Origin: Mogibacterium sp.
Lineage (GTDB): Bacteria > Bacillota > Clostridia > Peptostreptococcales > Anaerovoracaceae
Direction of reading: 5' to 3'
DNA: 62,481 bases
NCBI GenBank assembly: GCA_017515425.1
Contig: JAFWFU010000025.1
Location: forward strand, 1 to 62,481
Below, piece after piece: positions 14,583-28,979 of this stretch (positions are counted from its first letter, which is position 1; every line of letters starts with the position of its first letter). A program made the translations under genes and the position numbers. The notes beneath the pieces are model-generated. The model did no database searches and was not told where the DNA came from. It saw nothing but the letters and a program-made list of their open reading frames with translations.

Positions 14583-14725
14583 ATAAGGCGGGCGATTTGC
14601 AGTACGCAGAGGCTGGTCTGCGGCACACAAGACAAATCGCTTAATGCTGCTACTTCTCAGTCCTGACATGGTTCACGGAGCCCCGTTGCGCAGGGCCCCT
14701 GCGCACTGCAAATCGCCCACCGTTT
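14583..14725 (-). ncRNA. ffs: Signal recognition particle RNA, small bacterial type
   Basis: Read on the minus strand the segment contains the SRP domain IV signature: GTGAACCATGTCAGG, then an asymmetric loop and AGTAGCAGCATTAAG. The two ends pair (GGGCGATTTGCAGT with ACTGCAAATCGCCC) to give the long hairpin of 4.5S/small scRNA. A run of seven T, interrupted by an A-T step, follows the closing stem and should terminate transcription. Ends are approximate. Function: binds Ffh and targets nascent membrane proteins. Confidence 0.93.
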
Positions 14726-23026: not shown

Positions 23027-26000
23027 CTATTTAACTGTAATCTTTATCTTCTGGAACTGCCCTGCCTGCTCATATACATAGATTACAGCCTTGCCTTTGC
23101 CCTTGGCTTTAATCTTTCCCGAGGACGCTCCAACCGTTGCAACATCAGGATTTGACGATTCATATTTCAGCTTTCTATGCGTCGTCACCTTCTTCGCACC
23201 CTTTACAGCCTTCGCCTTGACCTTCAAAGCCTTACCAACGGAGAGCACAGCCTTCTTCGTTATCGGCTTCGACACATTTACGGATTTGAAGTTTCCATAT
23301 TTGCCGCCGTCCGTTCTGATATGCAGAGTCTTGGAAACCGCTATGGATTTGCCGTCCTTGTCGAAGGCTACGAGCAGATATTTATAGCTCTTTCCCTTTT
23401 TCAGCTTCTCGGTCTTTATCTTTGTGAAAGCATAGCTCTTTTTCGAAGCCTTGAAGGTTTTCATCTTCTTGAGCCTGATTCCCGAACCGCATTTAGACCC
23501 GTAAAGCACATATTTAACCGCGCCCTTAGGCTTAGCCCAATTTAGCTTTATCTTGGTATTGCCCTTGGAGACTCCTCTGAATTGCAGCAGTCCGAAGGTC
23601 GAGCCCGCAACGTCGTTGTCGTTCATAAGCTGCTCTATCTTCTGGTCTATCTGCTGTTCCGTATTGCCGATAAACGGCTGGTTCGGATCCGTATCTACAT
23701 CTATATTCGCCTTCTTGAAGCTCGTCGTGAACTTAACTTCCTTCTCAGTTCCGCTGATTATATAAGCCGCAAGTTCTTCCGTCTTGATCTCTTTTCCGTC
23801 AACGGTTTTCCATATATTGGTCGCCTCATAGCCCTCGTCGGCTGTCAGCTTAGGAGTTATTCCTATGGCGGCGCCTGCCGCGACCGCAACCTCTGCCGGC
23901 TCTACCTTGCCGCCCTCGCCTTCAACCGCGAAGATGACCTTGATAATCTCAGCCTTCTTAACGAATGTCGTGGTGAATATGACTTCCTTTTCCTCGCCGC
24001 TGACCACATATGCTGCAATATCCTCTGTGGTGAGTTCGCTGCCGTCGCTGCATTTCCAAATATTGCTATGCTCATAGCCCTCTTCGGCTGTGACTGTCGG
24101 CACTATTCCTACGGCAGATCCCGTCTCGACCACAATCTCCGCCGGCTCGACTGTTCCGCCTTCGCCTTCTACCTCGAAGCCTACCTTTATCGGTTCAGGC
24201 GTCCACAGGGCGTCTATTTTCAGCACTTCCCCTGCTGCCGGGTATTCGCTCGGCTTGTCCTCGCTCCATGTATATATGAAGCCTTTCCTTTTCGGCTCTG
24301 GGAGAATCTCGTCAAATGCCGTTCCCGCAGGCTTGCTGTAGACTTTAAGGCTCTCGCCTAGCTCCGTCACGCCGCCTTGGAAATCATATATGATAGTGCT
24401 GTGCCCGTTTAGCGTGAACTGCGCCGTGAATGTCACGCTGCTGTTCTTGCCGCTTATAACATAGTTCTTGACCTCAGCCGAGGTGAAGATTCCGCCTTCG
24501 CTGCATTCCCATGTATCGGTGAAGGTATAGCCGCCGTCAGCGGTTGCCGTAGGCTCTACGCCGACCGCGTTTCCGCTCATGACTGTTGTTTGAGCCGTCG
24601 TCGTCTTGCCGCCTGCCCCTGCCTCGAATTTAACCTCATTGCTCTTTGCGGCCCAGCGTGCAAAATATGTCGTGGAGGCTGTCGGGAATGTCGTGTCTGT
24701 TACCTTTTTACCGCCTGTTCTTGCATCATACCAAGCACTGAATATGTATCCGTCTCTTGACATTGCCGCTGCCGCAGGAAGTGTCATTGCAGTTCCCGTA
24801 CTTCCTGTAAGAACCCTTGTGGGCACACCGTTTATGGTTCCGCCATTACCGTCAAGTGTTACAGCTACGTTTCCAGGCGCCCATACCGCATAGTATGTGG
24901 TGTTTTCTGCTGGCATGGTCGTCACATTAGCCGCCGTTGCCGTTTTTGTCGCAGCCCAGCCGAGAAATGTAAATCCCGGTCTGGTAGGCACTGCATATCC
25001 GCTTGCAGCTGTAATGGCTGTTCCGTAATTGCCCGTTACGGTCTTTGTCGCCGCAGTTCCGAACTTCCCTTCGTTCCCGTCAAGTGTTACTGTTGCTTTA
25101 TTTATTTCCCATTTAGCATACAGTGTGATATTTGCTGTGCCCATGGTAAGCTGCACACCCGGCTGATATGTTGTGCCCGTGCCGTCCGCCTTGGTGTTCC
25201 AGCCTTTGAACGTATAGCCCGTAATGGCAAGCGTGTTTTTATCCTTAATGGGAGCCTTGGCACCTTGAACATATGAGTCGCCCTGAGCCGGCGCCGCGCC
25301 GCTTACCGCCTTGCCGCCGCCATTTGCGTTATATGTAATGGTGTGGAATACGTCTATCTTTAGCGTATCGGGATAATTCTTCCTCTCCGTCGCCTGGTTC
25401 TGATTGCCATAGGTATATATAATCTCGTAATCTCCGTTGCCGCCCTTTATATTGCTCGCGGTCTTGCTCGCGATAACGAGCTCAGCCGTCGCAGGATTTG
25501 CCACGCCGTTCTGAGTCGGATATGCTCCGATATTCGTGAGTGCAGGCTGTCCGCTTGCCGACGCCAGCGCCTTTACGATATGGAATTGGTTATTCGTATA
25601 TCCTTCTATCTTAACCTTTATATTGTTGGCTGTCGTATTTCGCGTAATTGTGTACTTAGGCACGGGACGCGGGTCGTCCATAAATAAAACTGTCGCTCCG
25701 CTCACTCCGAATGGAATATTTCCCTGTACCGAAGCCGGTGATTTCAGATACTTTCCGTTCGCGTCATCATATACGCCGTCGGAATCCTGGAGTCTATACT
25801 GTTTGACCAGGAACGATCCAATCCCCAGCGCCTTTGAAAATGCTGACGTCGGTATGGAATCTACCTTGCCTGGCAATATTACGCGAGTGTTCATGGTGCA
25901 GCCGTCAAATACCTGCGTTCCCATAGTTGTAAGCTTCTCTGGCAGGTTTTTCCCTCTGAAATCCGCTCCGGTGTTCTGAAATGCTGCTGTTCCCAAGGTT

Positions 26001-27658
26001 ATGATTGAATCCGGTAAATTTATTTCCGGACATTTAATCGTATTTAGTGAATACGCAGCCAAGGTTGTGATTCCGCCGGAGATCGTCAGGCTTTTGAACT
26101 TCGTACCATCTTCAAACAGCTTGTATCCTACCGTTGTAATCTGCGTCTTTACGCCGCCATTCTTGGGTGTGAGCTCATAGGGAATGGTTTCGTCCACATT
26201 CTCCCCGCCTGTGCCTAGATATGCGGTGATGGTCTTTGTCGCCGGCGAATATATCCATTTGCCTGTGGAATCCTCGACTTCGTTCGGTTCCGTAATTCCG
26301 TTTTTCCAATTTATCTGCGCCCTTGTAGCTCCCCATGGAGCGCCAGCAACGGAATCCTTGTTCATCTGAGGAAGGTTTACCTCGGTCATACTCGCGGCAG
26401 CGTTGCTAAAGGCTTTATTGTTAATGCTGCTCACGCTGCTCGAGCCAAAGGTCACCTTCTTCAGCCTTCTGCACCCGCCAAACGCACTCTCCTCGATAGT
26501 TCTTACTCCCGGCATCGTCAGGTTCGCAATTCGCGAATTGGTAAATGCGTAGGATTCCACGGTCTCTATAGAGTCCGGAAGTGTTACATTCAGCTCTGTA
26601 ACTGCTATATGTGTGAAAAAAGTCCATCTTGGCAGTTTTTTCATGGTATGACCGTTGCCGAACCGTACTGTTTTTATGCCCTCTGTCGCCGGATAGGTAG
26701 CAAGAGCTCCCTCGCAAAATCCCAGCACATCAACTCCGCCAATCTTTGACGGTATTGTCAACAAGCCCGTCTCATGGTTCCAATCGGCATAGCTCTTTGT
26801 TTTCATATCCGCCTTCATGCCGTAGATAAGACCTTTTGTCTTGTCAAAAAGGAGCACCGTATTCGAGGTTTTGTCCTGATTCTTATCCGACCATTTTACC
26901 TTCGCTCTGGCGGCGAACCACGGCTGTCCCTCTACGCTGCCCGGCTCATGTTCGTGTAAGTCTAGCGTAAGCGAGACGGCATAGTCATTCGCGAAAGCAT
27001 AGTCTCCTATCTTTTCTACTTTTTTAGGAATCTCTATTGTTCCCTTTAATTTGTTGTAGTAAAAAGCTCCCTCACCTATTTCCACGAGCGATGCCGGGAA
27101 TTTAACCATTTCCATATTCGTGCATCTTGCAAATGCATAATAGGGGATTTCATCAAGTGCCGTCAGATTCGACAAATCCAAATTCGGAAAAGGGGTATTC
27201 CCCTGAAAACATTGCTTTTCAAGAATGGCTACCGTAGTCGGCAGATTATAGGTCGTGCCCTCTACATTAAGCTCACTTATGGCATTGCCTCGAAAAGCCG
27301 ATTCGCCTATCTTGTAGAGCTTGCTGCCGCTCGCAAAGGTGACCTTGGTAATCTCGCTGGAAAGAAATGCTTCCTTCCCGATTTCTCTTACCGTAAGCCC
27401 TTTTATCTCCTTAGGTATGATAATCTCTTTTGGTGATACTCCCGTCTGGTGATTGAATTTATCAATCCTGCAGGTGCCATCACCATTGTTGGTGTAGTTC
27501 ACCCAATTCTCGTCGACCACCGTGCTCGCCGCATACGCCTTGCTGCCTGCCGCGCTCATCATAAAAAATGCGAACATGATAAGCATTACCCCAATAGCAG
27601 TCAGCAGAATGCGTCTGCCACGCAGAGCCGCAGTCCCGCTGCCTTTAATACATGTCAT
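23027..27658 (-). CDS. Large BspA-like/InlB-repeat surface protein
   Basis: A 1543-residue exported protein. Signal peptide: residues 1-43, ending AYA. Residues ~60-640: LRR_5 repeats of the BspA type (IGEGAFYYNKL, IGDYAFAND and similar). Residues ~750-1000: three Listeria-Bacteroides (InlB B-like, Flg_new) repeats (YTFKGWNTKADGTGT, FTFLGWAATKT). Residues ~1005-1290: three ~85-residue repeats each with WECSEGG/WKCSDGS/WKTVDGK and YVISG. A Fn3-like segment follows, then a Big_2 domain ending KIKITVK. No LPXTG. Likely an adhesin. GAAAGGAAGG precedes the ATG. Its upstream region is the candidate invertible segment. Confidence 0.88.
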   Translation of the reverse strand: MTCIKGSGTAALRGRRILLTAIGVMLIMFAFFMMSAAGSKAYAASTVVDENWVNYTNNGDGTCRIDKFNHQTGVSPKEIIIPKEIKGLTVREIGKEAFLSSEITKVTFASGSKLYKIGESAFRGNAISELNVEGTTYNLPTTVAILEKQCFQGNTPFPNLDLSNLTALDEIPYYAFARCTNMEMVKFPASLVEIGEGAFYYNKLKGTIEIPKKVEKIGDYAFANDYAVSLTLDLHEHEPGSVEGQPWFAARAKVKWSDKNQDKTSNTVLLFDKTKGLIYGMKADMKTKSYADWNHETGLLTIPSKIGGVDVLGFCEGALATYPATEGIKTVRFGNGHTMKKLPRWTFFTHIAVTELNVTLPDSIETVESYAFTNSRIANLTMPGVRTIEESAFGGCRRLKKVTFGSSSVSSINNKAFSNAAASMTEVNLPQMNKDSVAGAPWGATRAQINWKNGITEPNEVEDSTGKWIYSPATKTITAYLGTGGENVDETIPYELTPKNGGVKTQITTVGYKLFEDGTKFKSLTISGGITTLAAYSLNTIKCPEINLPDSIITLGTAAFQNTGADFRGKNLPEKLTTMGTQVFDGCTMNTRVILPGKVDSIPTSAFSKALGIGSFLVKQYRLQDSDGVYDDANGKYLKSPASVQGNIPFGVSGATVLFMDDPRPVPKYTITRNTTANNIKVKIEGYTNNQFHIVKALASASGQPALTNIGAYPTQNGVANPATAELVIASKTASNIKGGNGDYEIIYTYGNQNQATERKNYPDTLKIDVFHTITYNANGGGKAVSGAAPAQGDSYVQGAKAPIKDKNTLAITGYTFKGWNTKADGTGTTYQPGVQLTMGTANITLYAKWEINKATVTLDGNEGKFGTAATKTVTGNYGTAITAASGYAVPTRPGFTFLGWAATKTATAANVTTMPAENTTYYAVWAPGNVAVTLDGNGGTINGVPTRVLTGSTGTAMTLPAAAAMSRDGYIFSAWYDARTGGKKVTDTTFPTASTTYFARWAAKSNEVKFEAGAGGKTTTAQTTVMSGNAVGVEPTATADGGYTFTDTWECSEGGIFTSAEVKNYVISGKNSSVTFTAQFTLNGHSTIIYDFQGGVTELGESLKVYSKPAGTAFDEILPEPKRKGFIYTWSEDKPSEYPAAGEVLKIDALWTPEPIKVGFEVEGEGGTVEPAEIVVETGSAVGIVPTVTAEEGYEHSNIWKCSDGSELTTEDIAAYVVSGEEKEVIFTTTFVKKAEIIKVIFAVEGEGGKVEPAEVAVAAGAAIGITPKLTADEGYEATNIWKTVDGKEIKTEELAAYIISGTEKEVKFTTSFKKANIDVDTDPNQPFIGNTEQQIDQKIEQLMNDNDVAGSTFGLLQFRGVSKGNTKIKLNWAKPKGAVKYVLYGSKCGSGIRLKKMKTFKASKKSYAFTKIKTEKLKKGKSYKYLLVAFDKDGKSIAVSKTLHIRTDGGKYGNFKSVNVSKPITKKAVLSVGKALKVKAKAVKGAKKVTTHRKLKYESSNPDVATVGASSGKIKAKGKGKAVIYVYEQAGQFQKIKITVK

Positions 27659-27728
27659 TCCATCAACCTTCCTTTCTTTAACCTTTAACCCTTTCTGTAA
27701 CTTCCAACGCCATGCCTATGCCTGCGGC

Positions 27729-27750
27729 TCACAGAATATAGATTCCGTGA
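27729..27750. repeat. 22-bp palindromic core, copy 1 (candidate recombination site)
   Basis: Arms TCACAGAAT and ATTCCGTGA around centre ATAG, preceded by CTGCGGC. It lies 71 nt upstream of the surface-protein ATG. Compared with copy 2 at 28072-28093 it matches 21 of 22 bases in inverted orientation but 19 of 22 in direct orientation. Confidence 0.8.
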
Positions 27751-27769
27751 TAATCAAGACTTTCTATTA

Positions 27770-27790
27770 TAAAAAAAAGACCTTGCGGTC
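27770..27790 (-). terminator. Short terminator facing the surface-protein gene
   Basis: On the minus strand GACC, GCAA tetraloop, GGTC, then a run of eight or nine T. It sits just inside the candidate invertible segment, so transcripts from the recombinase gene would stop before the surface-protein gene. Confidence 0.6.
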
Positions 27791-27928
27791 AGGGATTTGG
27801 GCAACTTCCAGCATTCAATATTTCCCCCGAAACTCAGATATAACCGATATAGCCGGGCTCCGAATATTTTTTTCAACAATAAAACGCAACACATCGCCTG
27901 TTTGGATTTTCCTTCCATTCAGCCATGG

Positions 27929-27959
27929 TTGACATACCGTTTTTACTATTCAATATATG
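27929..27959 (+). promoter_or_regulatory. Promoter-like pair inside the candidate invertible segment
   Basis: Perfect TTGACA at 27929-27934 with TATATG at 27954-27959 (19-nt spacing) or overlapping hexamers at 17-18 nt. Points towards the recombinase 3' end in this orientation. Confidence 0.4.
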
Positions 27960-28018
27960 GTCCATCCCTTTTCTTCTCATCTATGTCCTCAGAAATAAGC
28001 TGAGCCGGCATATTTCGG

Positions 28019-28047
28019 TTGACTTTTCCTCTAAAATTTGGTCTAAT
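28019..28047 (+). promoter_or_regulatory. Strong promoter-like pair inside the candidate invertible segment
   Basis: TTGACT (28019-28024), 17-nt spacer, TCTAAT (28042-28047). Each hexamer differs from consensus at one position. As oriented it would drive antisense RNA into the recombinase gene. Confidence 0.6.
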
Positions 28048-28071
28048 CTAGGGGCATGTTTAATCTGCGGC

Positions 28072-28093
28072 TCACGGAATCTATATTCCGTGA
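28072..28093. repeat. 22-bp palindromic core, copy 2 (candidate recombination site)
   Basis: Perfect arms TCACGGAAT and ATTCCGTGA around centre CTAT, preceded by CTGCGGC as in copy 1. It ends 4 nt from the recombinase stop codon. Confidence 0.8.
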
Positions 28094-28097
28094 TTTT

Positions 28098-28979
28098 TTA
28101 TGTCACAAGCGCAAGTTCTTCCATTATTCTCTCGTGCTCCTTGTATGTCTCCGCTATATATATCCTCGTCGTATCTATGCTCGAATGCCCGAGCACGTCC
28201 GCAAGCTTCGCTATATCATGCCTCGCCCTATAGAAACATCTGGCAAAAAGCCTTCGGAGGTTATGCGGAAACACCTTGCAGGCGTCCACACCCGCCTTGA
28301 CCGCCAGCTTCTTCATCAGCGCCCAGATATAGCTCCTGTGAAGCGGACTTCCCCTGCGGTTTATGAATATCGCGCCCTCTTCAATCCCTCGCTTTTTCGC
28401 AAATCTATGCAGCTTGTTTCGCAGCTTGCCGGGTATGAGGATTGTCCGCGTCTTGCCCTTTAAGCTTATTCGCGCCTCTCTCATGCTTACCGCTTCCTTT
28501 GTCAGATATTTCAGCTCCGACACCCTCATTCCCGTTGCACAGAGGCTCTCAAGTATGAGCTCCAGCTCTTCCTCGCCTATCTCCACCGCCTTTTTCAGCA
28601 GCTTCTCATAGTCGCTTCTCTCGAGCATTCTCCTCTCGCTTATATAGCTTCGTCTCTGCTGACGCATATTGTGAATGCGGATTTCCTCTCTGCCTATATA
28701 TTTCAGATATGCTCTTATTGCTGAAAGCTCTCCGTTTACAGTTGATGGACTGAATCCTTTGTCAATGAGATGATTTTTGTAGGCGACAATGCTCTTCGCC
28801 GTGATGACTCTGTTTTCGGAGTCGCCGCCGTCGTCGCTTTCTCCTCCTCCTCCCTCGGCTCTGATATAATCAAAAAGCCCCCTTACTTCATGGAGATACT
28901 TCTCGCATGTCGCAGGGGCTTTTTCCTCTGTTATCAGATATTTCTCAAAGCCTTTTAGTTGTACTTCGTCATTATTCAT
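28098..28979 (-). CDS. Tyrosine recombinase (XerC/D-like, candidate invertase)
   Basis: A 293-residue integrase with an N-terminal SAM-like core-binding domain (residues ~8-100, with an acidic Gly-rich insertion at 41-56) and a catalytic domain. All catalytic residues are seen: R152 (CATGMRVSEL), K176 (KGKTRTILIP), H239 and R242 (FPHNLRR), H265 (LGHSS), Y274 (TTRIYI). It is not the housekeeping XerC/D by context. No phage or transposon genes surround it. Its stop is 4 nt from a 22-bp palindrome, pointing to local site-specific inversion. GGGAGGTGAATCAGT precedes the ATG. Confidence 0.9.
   Translation of the reverse strand: MNNDEVQLKGFEKYLITEEKAPATCEKYLHEVRGLFDYIRAEGGGGESDDGGDSENRVITAKSIVAYKNHLIDKGFSPSTVNGELSAIRAYLKYIGREEIRIHNMRQQRRSYISERRMLERSDYEKLLKKAVEIGEEELELILESLCATGMRVSELKYLTKEAVSMREARISLKGKTRTILIPGKLRNKLHRFAKKRGIEEGAIFINRRGSPLHRSYIWALMKKLAVKAGVDACKVFPHNLRRLFARCFYRARHDIAKLADVLGHSSIDTTRIYIAETYKEHERIMEELALVT

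Follow-up and report, generated by a model that had tools for sequence, protein, structure and literature searches.

A probable promoter-inversion switch with an adjacent tyrosine recombinase beside a surface-protein gene of Mogibacterium sp.

The fim switch of Escherichia coli, on which the recombinases FimB and FimE act, inverts a segment of about 300 bp that includes the promoter; it has two recombinases, and its repeats are shorter than those described below. The cell-wall protein gene cwpV of Clostridioides difficile is preceded by inverted repeats of 21 bp that are imperfect and separated by 195 bp (PMC2784873). In the hCom2 gut community, inverton group 139 (32 of 33 from class Clostridia) is paired with tyrosine-recombinase invertase group 35, and orientation changes were seen in reads for Clostridium sp. 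D5 and Intestinimonas butyriciproducens (PMC11892184). Inversion signatures had been found in Clostridia before, mostly near signalling and chemotaxis genes (PMC5903667). Here we describe a locus of Mogibacterium sp. (Bacillota; Clostridia; Peptostreptococcales; Anaerovoracaceae; GenBank assembly GCA_017515425.1) in which a short segment with a promoter-like sequence lies between a surface-protein gene and a tyrosine recombinase gene. The whole stretch of DNA analysed, referred to as the window, is contig JAFWFU010000025.1, positions 1 to 62,481 (62,481 nucleotides, forward strand).

The analysis makes it very likely that this locus is a site-specific inversion switch, in which the recombinase would flip a promoter for the surface protein. 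The recombinase (28098-28979) is proposed to bind two palindromic sites; strand exchange across their matching 6-bp centres would then flip the 321-bp segment, which has an outward-facing promoter-like sequence near one of the sites. In the orientation of the assembly the promoter would face the recombinase end, i.e. the OFF state for the surface gene, and a hairpin with a T-run at the right-hand site would end the OFF-state transcript before it reads antisense into the recombinase gene. In the flipped segment the promoter would face the surface gene, and transcripts would begin with a leader of about 110 nt, which is the ON state. Activity of this copy, action of the recombinase on these sites and function of the promoter are inferred. 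The features are as follows.

23027 to 27658, minus strand: target gene, coding for a BspA-type leucine-rich-repeat protein of 1543 aa that has a signal-like N-terminus as well as Flg_new and Big_2 domains.
27729 to 27750, no strand assigned: predicted target-gene-side recombination site TCACAGAATATAGATTCCGTGA, with 8-bp arms and the 6-bp centre TATAGA; form and place as in homologous loci.
27751 to 28071, no strand assigned: predicted invertible segment, 321 bp from site to site; related loci hold segments in opposite orientations.
27771 to 27790, minus strand: weak terminator-like hairpin GACCGCAAGGTC followed by T8, with a 4-bp stem and a GCAA loop, pointing to the surface gene.
28019 to 28047, plus strand: promoter-like TTGACT-17-TCTAAT with TGn ahead of the -10, 12.3 bits, pointing away from the surface gene in the assembly.
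28072 to 28093, no strand assigned: predicted recombinase-side recombination site TCACGGAATCTATATTCCGTGA, with the centre TCTATA, 4 bp beyond the recombinase stop codon.
28072 to 28099, plus strand: terminator-like hairpin of the right core (9-bp stem, 4-nt loop) followed by TTTTTT.
28098 to 28979, minus strand: tyrosine recombinase of 293 aa, the likely invertase for both sites, identified by Pfam and by its catalytic residues.

The catalytic residues of tyrosine recombinases are R-K-H-R-H-Y. All of them are found in the protein (R152, K174/K176, H239, R242, H265 and Y274), in agreement with an earlier note on this DNA, which had called the enzyme catalytically complete. It matches Phage_integrase in Pfam (E 4.4e-25), and its best NCBIfam matches are of the Xer type, every one under its curated cut-off. 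The two cores, with 321 nt between them, also proved to be as the note had described: as inverted repeats they are complementary at 21 of 22 positions (95%), with one arm mismatch in the target-side site. Because the centres TATAGA and TCTATA are reverse complements of each other, the crossover is expected to be inverted. In the whole assembly (1,725,877 bases in 53 contigs, 90% complete) the core pattern, with up to 3 mismatches allowed, occurs at these two places only, and a control pattern occurs nowhere. The heptamer CTGCGGC borders both sites on the same side (27722-27728 and 28065-28071). The segment was also considered as a mobile repeat resembling a miniature inverted-repeat transposable element; this reading was dropped because the segment is single copy in the assembly.

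The note had named two promoters in the segment. One of them, the TTGACT-17-TCTAAT pair, is present and by weight matrix leads the segment by 2.8 bits; a promoter as good arose in about 2 of 60 shuffles, and the distance of the pair to the site fits the pattern of the family. The other, TTGACA at 27929, exists as a motif that has no convincing -10 and was dropped as a promoter. The predicted distance of about 110 nt to the ATG after a flip agrees with the arithmetic, by which the -10 would then sit at about 27780-27775 on the minus strand. With the best promoter pointing away from the surface gene, the orientation in the window is probably OFF for this gene, as the note had proposed.

Next we considered the recombinase family; all homolog counts include the genome of the window. 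Homologs occur in 36 of 393 genomes sampled from the order (E<=1e-30) and in 37 of 349 genomes of the family (E<=1e-50). An alignment-based search (A1) located 44 loci in viral contigs, of which 17 were examined and 9 entered the promoter test described below; a search of the genome contigs and viral contigs with the single protein confirmed no relative. An exact scan for the core matched 8 genome contigs. In two of these a homologous recombinase adjoins a site pair (L068, 45% over 246 aa; L072, 54% over the 112 aa available), a third (L070) has a 28% homolog near the core, and the other five contain no homolog in the stretch examined. Locus L068, which agrees with L125 at all 960 bases compared (100%), entered the counts only once. 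Where a homologous switch has a named carrier, this is one of the Clostridia: the plasmid records are labelled Pusillibacter faecalis, Subdoligranulum variabile (two) and Monoglobus pectinilyticus.

Site pairs were counted in 59 loci, reduced to 56 after one duplicate and two loci without a stop codon had been removed. An inverted pair directly follows the recombinase stop in 33 of the 56, the window included, although L107 and L121 are weak or atypical members of this group. The first site begins -7 to +60 from the stop codon in 32 loci and at +383 in L090. Among the 23 loci without a pair, 13 reach the end of their contig within 600 bp. Plasmid and phage records contained paired sites in four of six cases. 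In one metagenome contig (L145) the first site is immediately followed on its inner side by a further copy that shares its centre, at most 70 nt past the recombinase stop, which suggests that the site was duplicated.

The orientation of promoters was compared across the family with one weight matrix, built on approximate sigma-A frequencies, and with 60 plain shuffles per locus; L149 was excluded. With both strands considered, the top-scoring promoter pointed at a site 15-70 nt away in 33 of 46 loci, compared with 12.2 in shuffles; it exceeded 95% of the shuffles in 20 of 46 (2.3 expected). The clear cases, those with a margin above 2 bits, comprise 11 promoters directed toward the target and 17 toward the recombinase; the window promoter belongs to the latter group, and the other 18 loci are undecided or out of range. 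The assemblies across the family hold both orientations and therefore both states occur, which matches the prediction of a switch.

The note had suggested looking among relatives for the segment in the opposite orientation. Such a case is given by L148 and L154, two IMG/VR contigs from distant relatives rather than from this species, with an intact recombinase seen for L148 only. Their flanks align in plus orientation, one with 77.5% identity over 80 nt and the other with 79% over 580 nt, the latter starting about 90 nt beyond the far site, while the segment, from site to site, matches on the minus strand (70.5% over 241 nt, E 9e-24). Identity between the two segments is 70% flipped and 59% unflipped, compared with a mean of 58% and a maximum of 65% in shuffles. 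A third locus, L122, is oriented as L154 (70%, shuffle maximum 67%); against L148 it gives a minus-strand blast match (E 6e-7), but a global flipped identity of 66% that merely equals the shuffle maximum. Other similar segments lie the same way round (L111/L112, L096/L109, L103/L145 and the paralogs of genome G297). In the flip comparison of L139, L140 and L141, the contigs of the latter two stop at the recombinase stop codon. At the level of sequence, these data support the view that the segment has been inverted between two orthologs in relatives.

Assembly breaks were examined in 52 recombinase copies, which remained of 57 places once the copy in the window and four of 31-33% identity had been set aside. 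The contig ended within 600 bp on the 3' (switch) side in 15 of the 52 and on the 5' side in 3, with 2.4 expected for each. Repeated recombinase genes by themselves would not obviously favour either side; inversion would account for the tendency of contigs to end at the switch side.

Several findings weigh against the interpretation as a working inversion switch. A strict promoter scan gave four promoter-like matches (1.7 in shuffles), all on the minus strand; the promoter at 28019-28047 is absent from them because of the C at position 2 of its -10, and exceeds chance only modestly, as the shuffles above indicate. Inside the segment one of the four, a minus-strand match that the note had not listed (ATGAGA-17-TATATT at 27980-27952, 9 of 12 positions, 9.5 bits), already points at the surface gene in the present orientation, which speaks against a simple OFF reading. 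Recombinase homologs (E<=1e-25) are found in just 3 of 47 genomes of the genus, the own one included, and no flipped ortholog of the window locus was found within the genus: the homolog in G013 (41%) has no site pair alongside, and G069 is cut by a contig end. Ten of the 56 loci have enough sequence and still no pair at the cut-off used; four of these are homologs of 30-32%, and L084 and L098 are narrowly under the cut-off. Blast among the segments of the 33 paired loci revealed no full-length flipped pair, only short minus-strand matches, the longest of 61 nt (L101/L109). In addition, the contig of L154 begins within the recombinase gene (residues 143-292 matched), L148 and L149 are the same and share one orientation, and the comparison for L151 was undecided.

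Some of these points would fit a locked or decaying switch, in which the family inverts and the copy in the window no longer flips. The arm mismatch in the target-side site, the absence of the recombinase from most relatives in the genus and the modest strength of the promoter are all in line with this reading. We nevertheless regard it as improbable: the recombinase frame is open with every catalytic residue kept, and the sites retain 21 of 22 identical positions and a perfect match of the centres, where drift would be expected if exchange had ceased.

A further question is whether the sites act as inverted or as direct repeats. Each core is palindromic; read as direct repeats, the cores therefore align too, at 90% over 30 nt, including the common CTGCGGC on the same side. 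This alignment would suit sites that act directly, such that the segment is excised or deleted or is the remnant of an integration. The centres can distinguish between the two. Since the count of 33 in 56 loci had made use of the centres, we chose sites by their arms only. This test found two sites in 34 of 54 loci; the centres agree at six of six positions as inverted repeats in 29 of the 34 and as direct repeats in none. In a control with sites paired across loci the centres matched in 2 of 1122 combinations. Of the remaining five loci, L104 matches at five of six positions, L103, L105 and L116 have weak second sites, and L133 has tied candidates with a matching site among them. In the viral contigs the arms alone identified two sites in 8 of 17 loci, and all 8 pairs of centres agree at six of six positions (L148 and L149 being identical). 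The sites of the family follow the pattern NNACnnAA-N6-TTnnGTNN. With the centres in the window being reverse complements, and with L148 and L154 differing by an inversion, direct action of the sites is very unlikely.

The hairpins of the locus were analyzed separately. The terminator that the note had placed toward the surface gene is present as a hairpin with a T-run; it is weak (4-bp stem, -5.8 kcal/mol, z -1.27) and falls under the minimum of the scan. The hairpin of the right-hand site, which the note had not listed, forms in folding, and the whole stretch reaches a z of only -1.41. In 17 of 37 loci at least five T occur within eight positions on the side of the recombinase-side site that corresponds to the window; the other three sides have 7, 4 and 5 such cases. 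A 36-bp near-palindrome beside the surface gene, which includes the CTGCGGC flanks, would form in the flipped state only. The predicted leader hairpin of that state has 17 bp by way of these flanks (-45.4 kcal/mol, z -6.4; no shuffle out of 200 reached this stability) and lacks a T-run behind it; as a guess, it could play a stabilising role. It is highly improbable that the repeats are transcription terminators or RNA hairpins without a role in recombination: the right core with TTTTTT does score as a terminator and folding gives a 9-bp hairpin for the core, but the assembly has just two copies, the target-side site has no T-run, and sites are paired with matched centres across loci.

The assignment of the target as a surface-protein gene was upheld by its LRR_5, Flg_new and Big_2 domains and by its hydrophobic, signal-like N-terminus. 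The locus lies between atpB and a gene for a DUF1385-PrmC fusion, with rho next after the latter. For three sister species, the rho-prmC region as fetched contains neither the recombinase nor the surface gene. Elsewhere in the window a bacterial small signal recognition particle RNA lies at 14603-14702 on the minus strand, the sole Rfam match at the gathering threshold.

Target frames were scanned for 19 of 36 loci. Nine have surface-type targets (four SLH, one CWB2, two Cna_B/SpaA, one Flg_new alone and one Wzz). The other ten comprise one PIG-L protein, one Crp-like regulator, five frames without a match and three catalytically dead paralogs of the recombinase, which lack the His and Arg of the second motif, the His of the third motif and the Tyr. 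By residue check, these dead paralogs lie behind invertible segments at the following places.

L083, 9253 to 10143, plus strand: dead recombinase paralog.
L088, 1033 to 1971, minus strand: dead recombinase paralog.
L093, 6934 to 7761, minus strand: dead recombinase paralog.

Genome G297 has five paralogous switches (L104, L110, L124, L125 and L126) with the same or nearly the same arms and with different centres. Related secreted-protein targets were seen at four of them; L110 is cut by a contig end. Among 20 pairs of loci within genomes, none has the same centre and seven have all 16 arm positions in common; since few identical centres are expected by chance too, the zero is no evidence of selection for difference. 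We tentatively propose a private-centre code, a possibility we hold as rather less than even: each locus would have its own six-base centre, by which switches that share arms could flip independently, and in some loci the flipped promoter would drive a dead paralog that might bind the sites as a brake or regulator. The dead paralogs are possibly regulators of inversion.

The results provide a rule by which such loci can be sought: a recombinase gene, a palindromic site usually within tens of bases of it, a segment with a promoter, and an inverted partner site with the same six-base centre. Applied to assemblies of uncultured relatives, it allows switches to be recognized and, often, to be assigned to the ON or the OFF state. 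In the open-access literature searched, parts of which were accessible, we met no earlier description of the six-base matching rule, the promoter-distance rule or a dead paralog as target, and such descriptions may exist elsewhere; searches there yielded no paper on an invertible promoter of Lachnospiraceae or on an inactive recombinase paralog.

Among known systems, the tyrosine-type DNA invertase PsrA (H8) from a Streptococcus dysgalactiae plasmid is a related recombinase with 30% identity. Unlike in the window, the next annotated gene at its locus encodes a restriction specificity subunit, and no such site pair was found there at the cut-off. With the fim switch of E. coli the locus shares a promoter within the segment and a recombinase gene nearby; it differs by its 22-bp palindromic sites and by a single recombinase for each segment. 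The note had likened the locus to the RecV-controlled cell-wall protein switches of C. difficile. For cwpV the likeness stands as far as a recombinase-driven switch of a surface protein is concerned, with inverted repeats flipped by a site-specific recombinase and a hairpin or terminator element. It is not the best comparison: in the available description of cwpV the inverted region does not include the promoter and has no recV next to it (PMC2784873), whereas in the window the supported promoter is inside and the recombinase adjacent. Hence the description of a promoter-inversion switch whose invertase is adjacent suits the locus better than that of a CwpV-like terminator switch. Closer to it is inverton group 139, likewise a short intergenic segment between inverted repeats near a tyrosine recombinase, with examples of about 205 and 227 bp inner length (PMC11892184). 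The palindromic sites, six-base centres, promoter-distance rule and dead-recombinase targets found here do not form part of that group as the accessible text describes it. Judged by this description rather than by the inverted-repeat motif, inverton group 139 and invertase group 35 are probably the family to which the locus belongs. Inversion switches of Clostridia being known (PMC11892184), the putative switch of Mogibacterium sp. would add a member to a kind already described.

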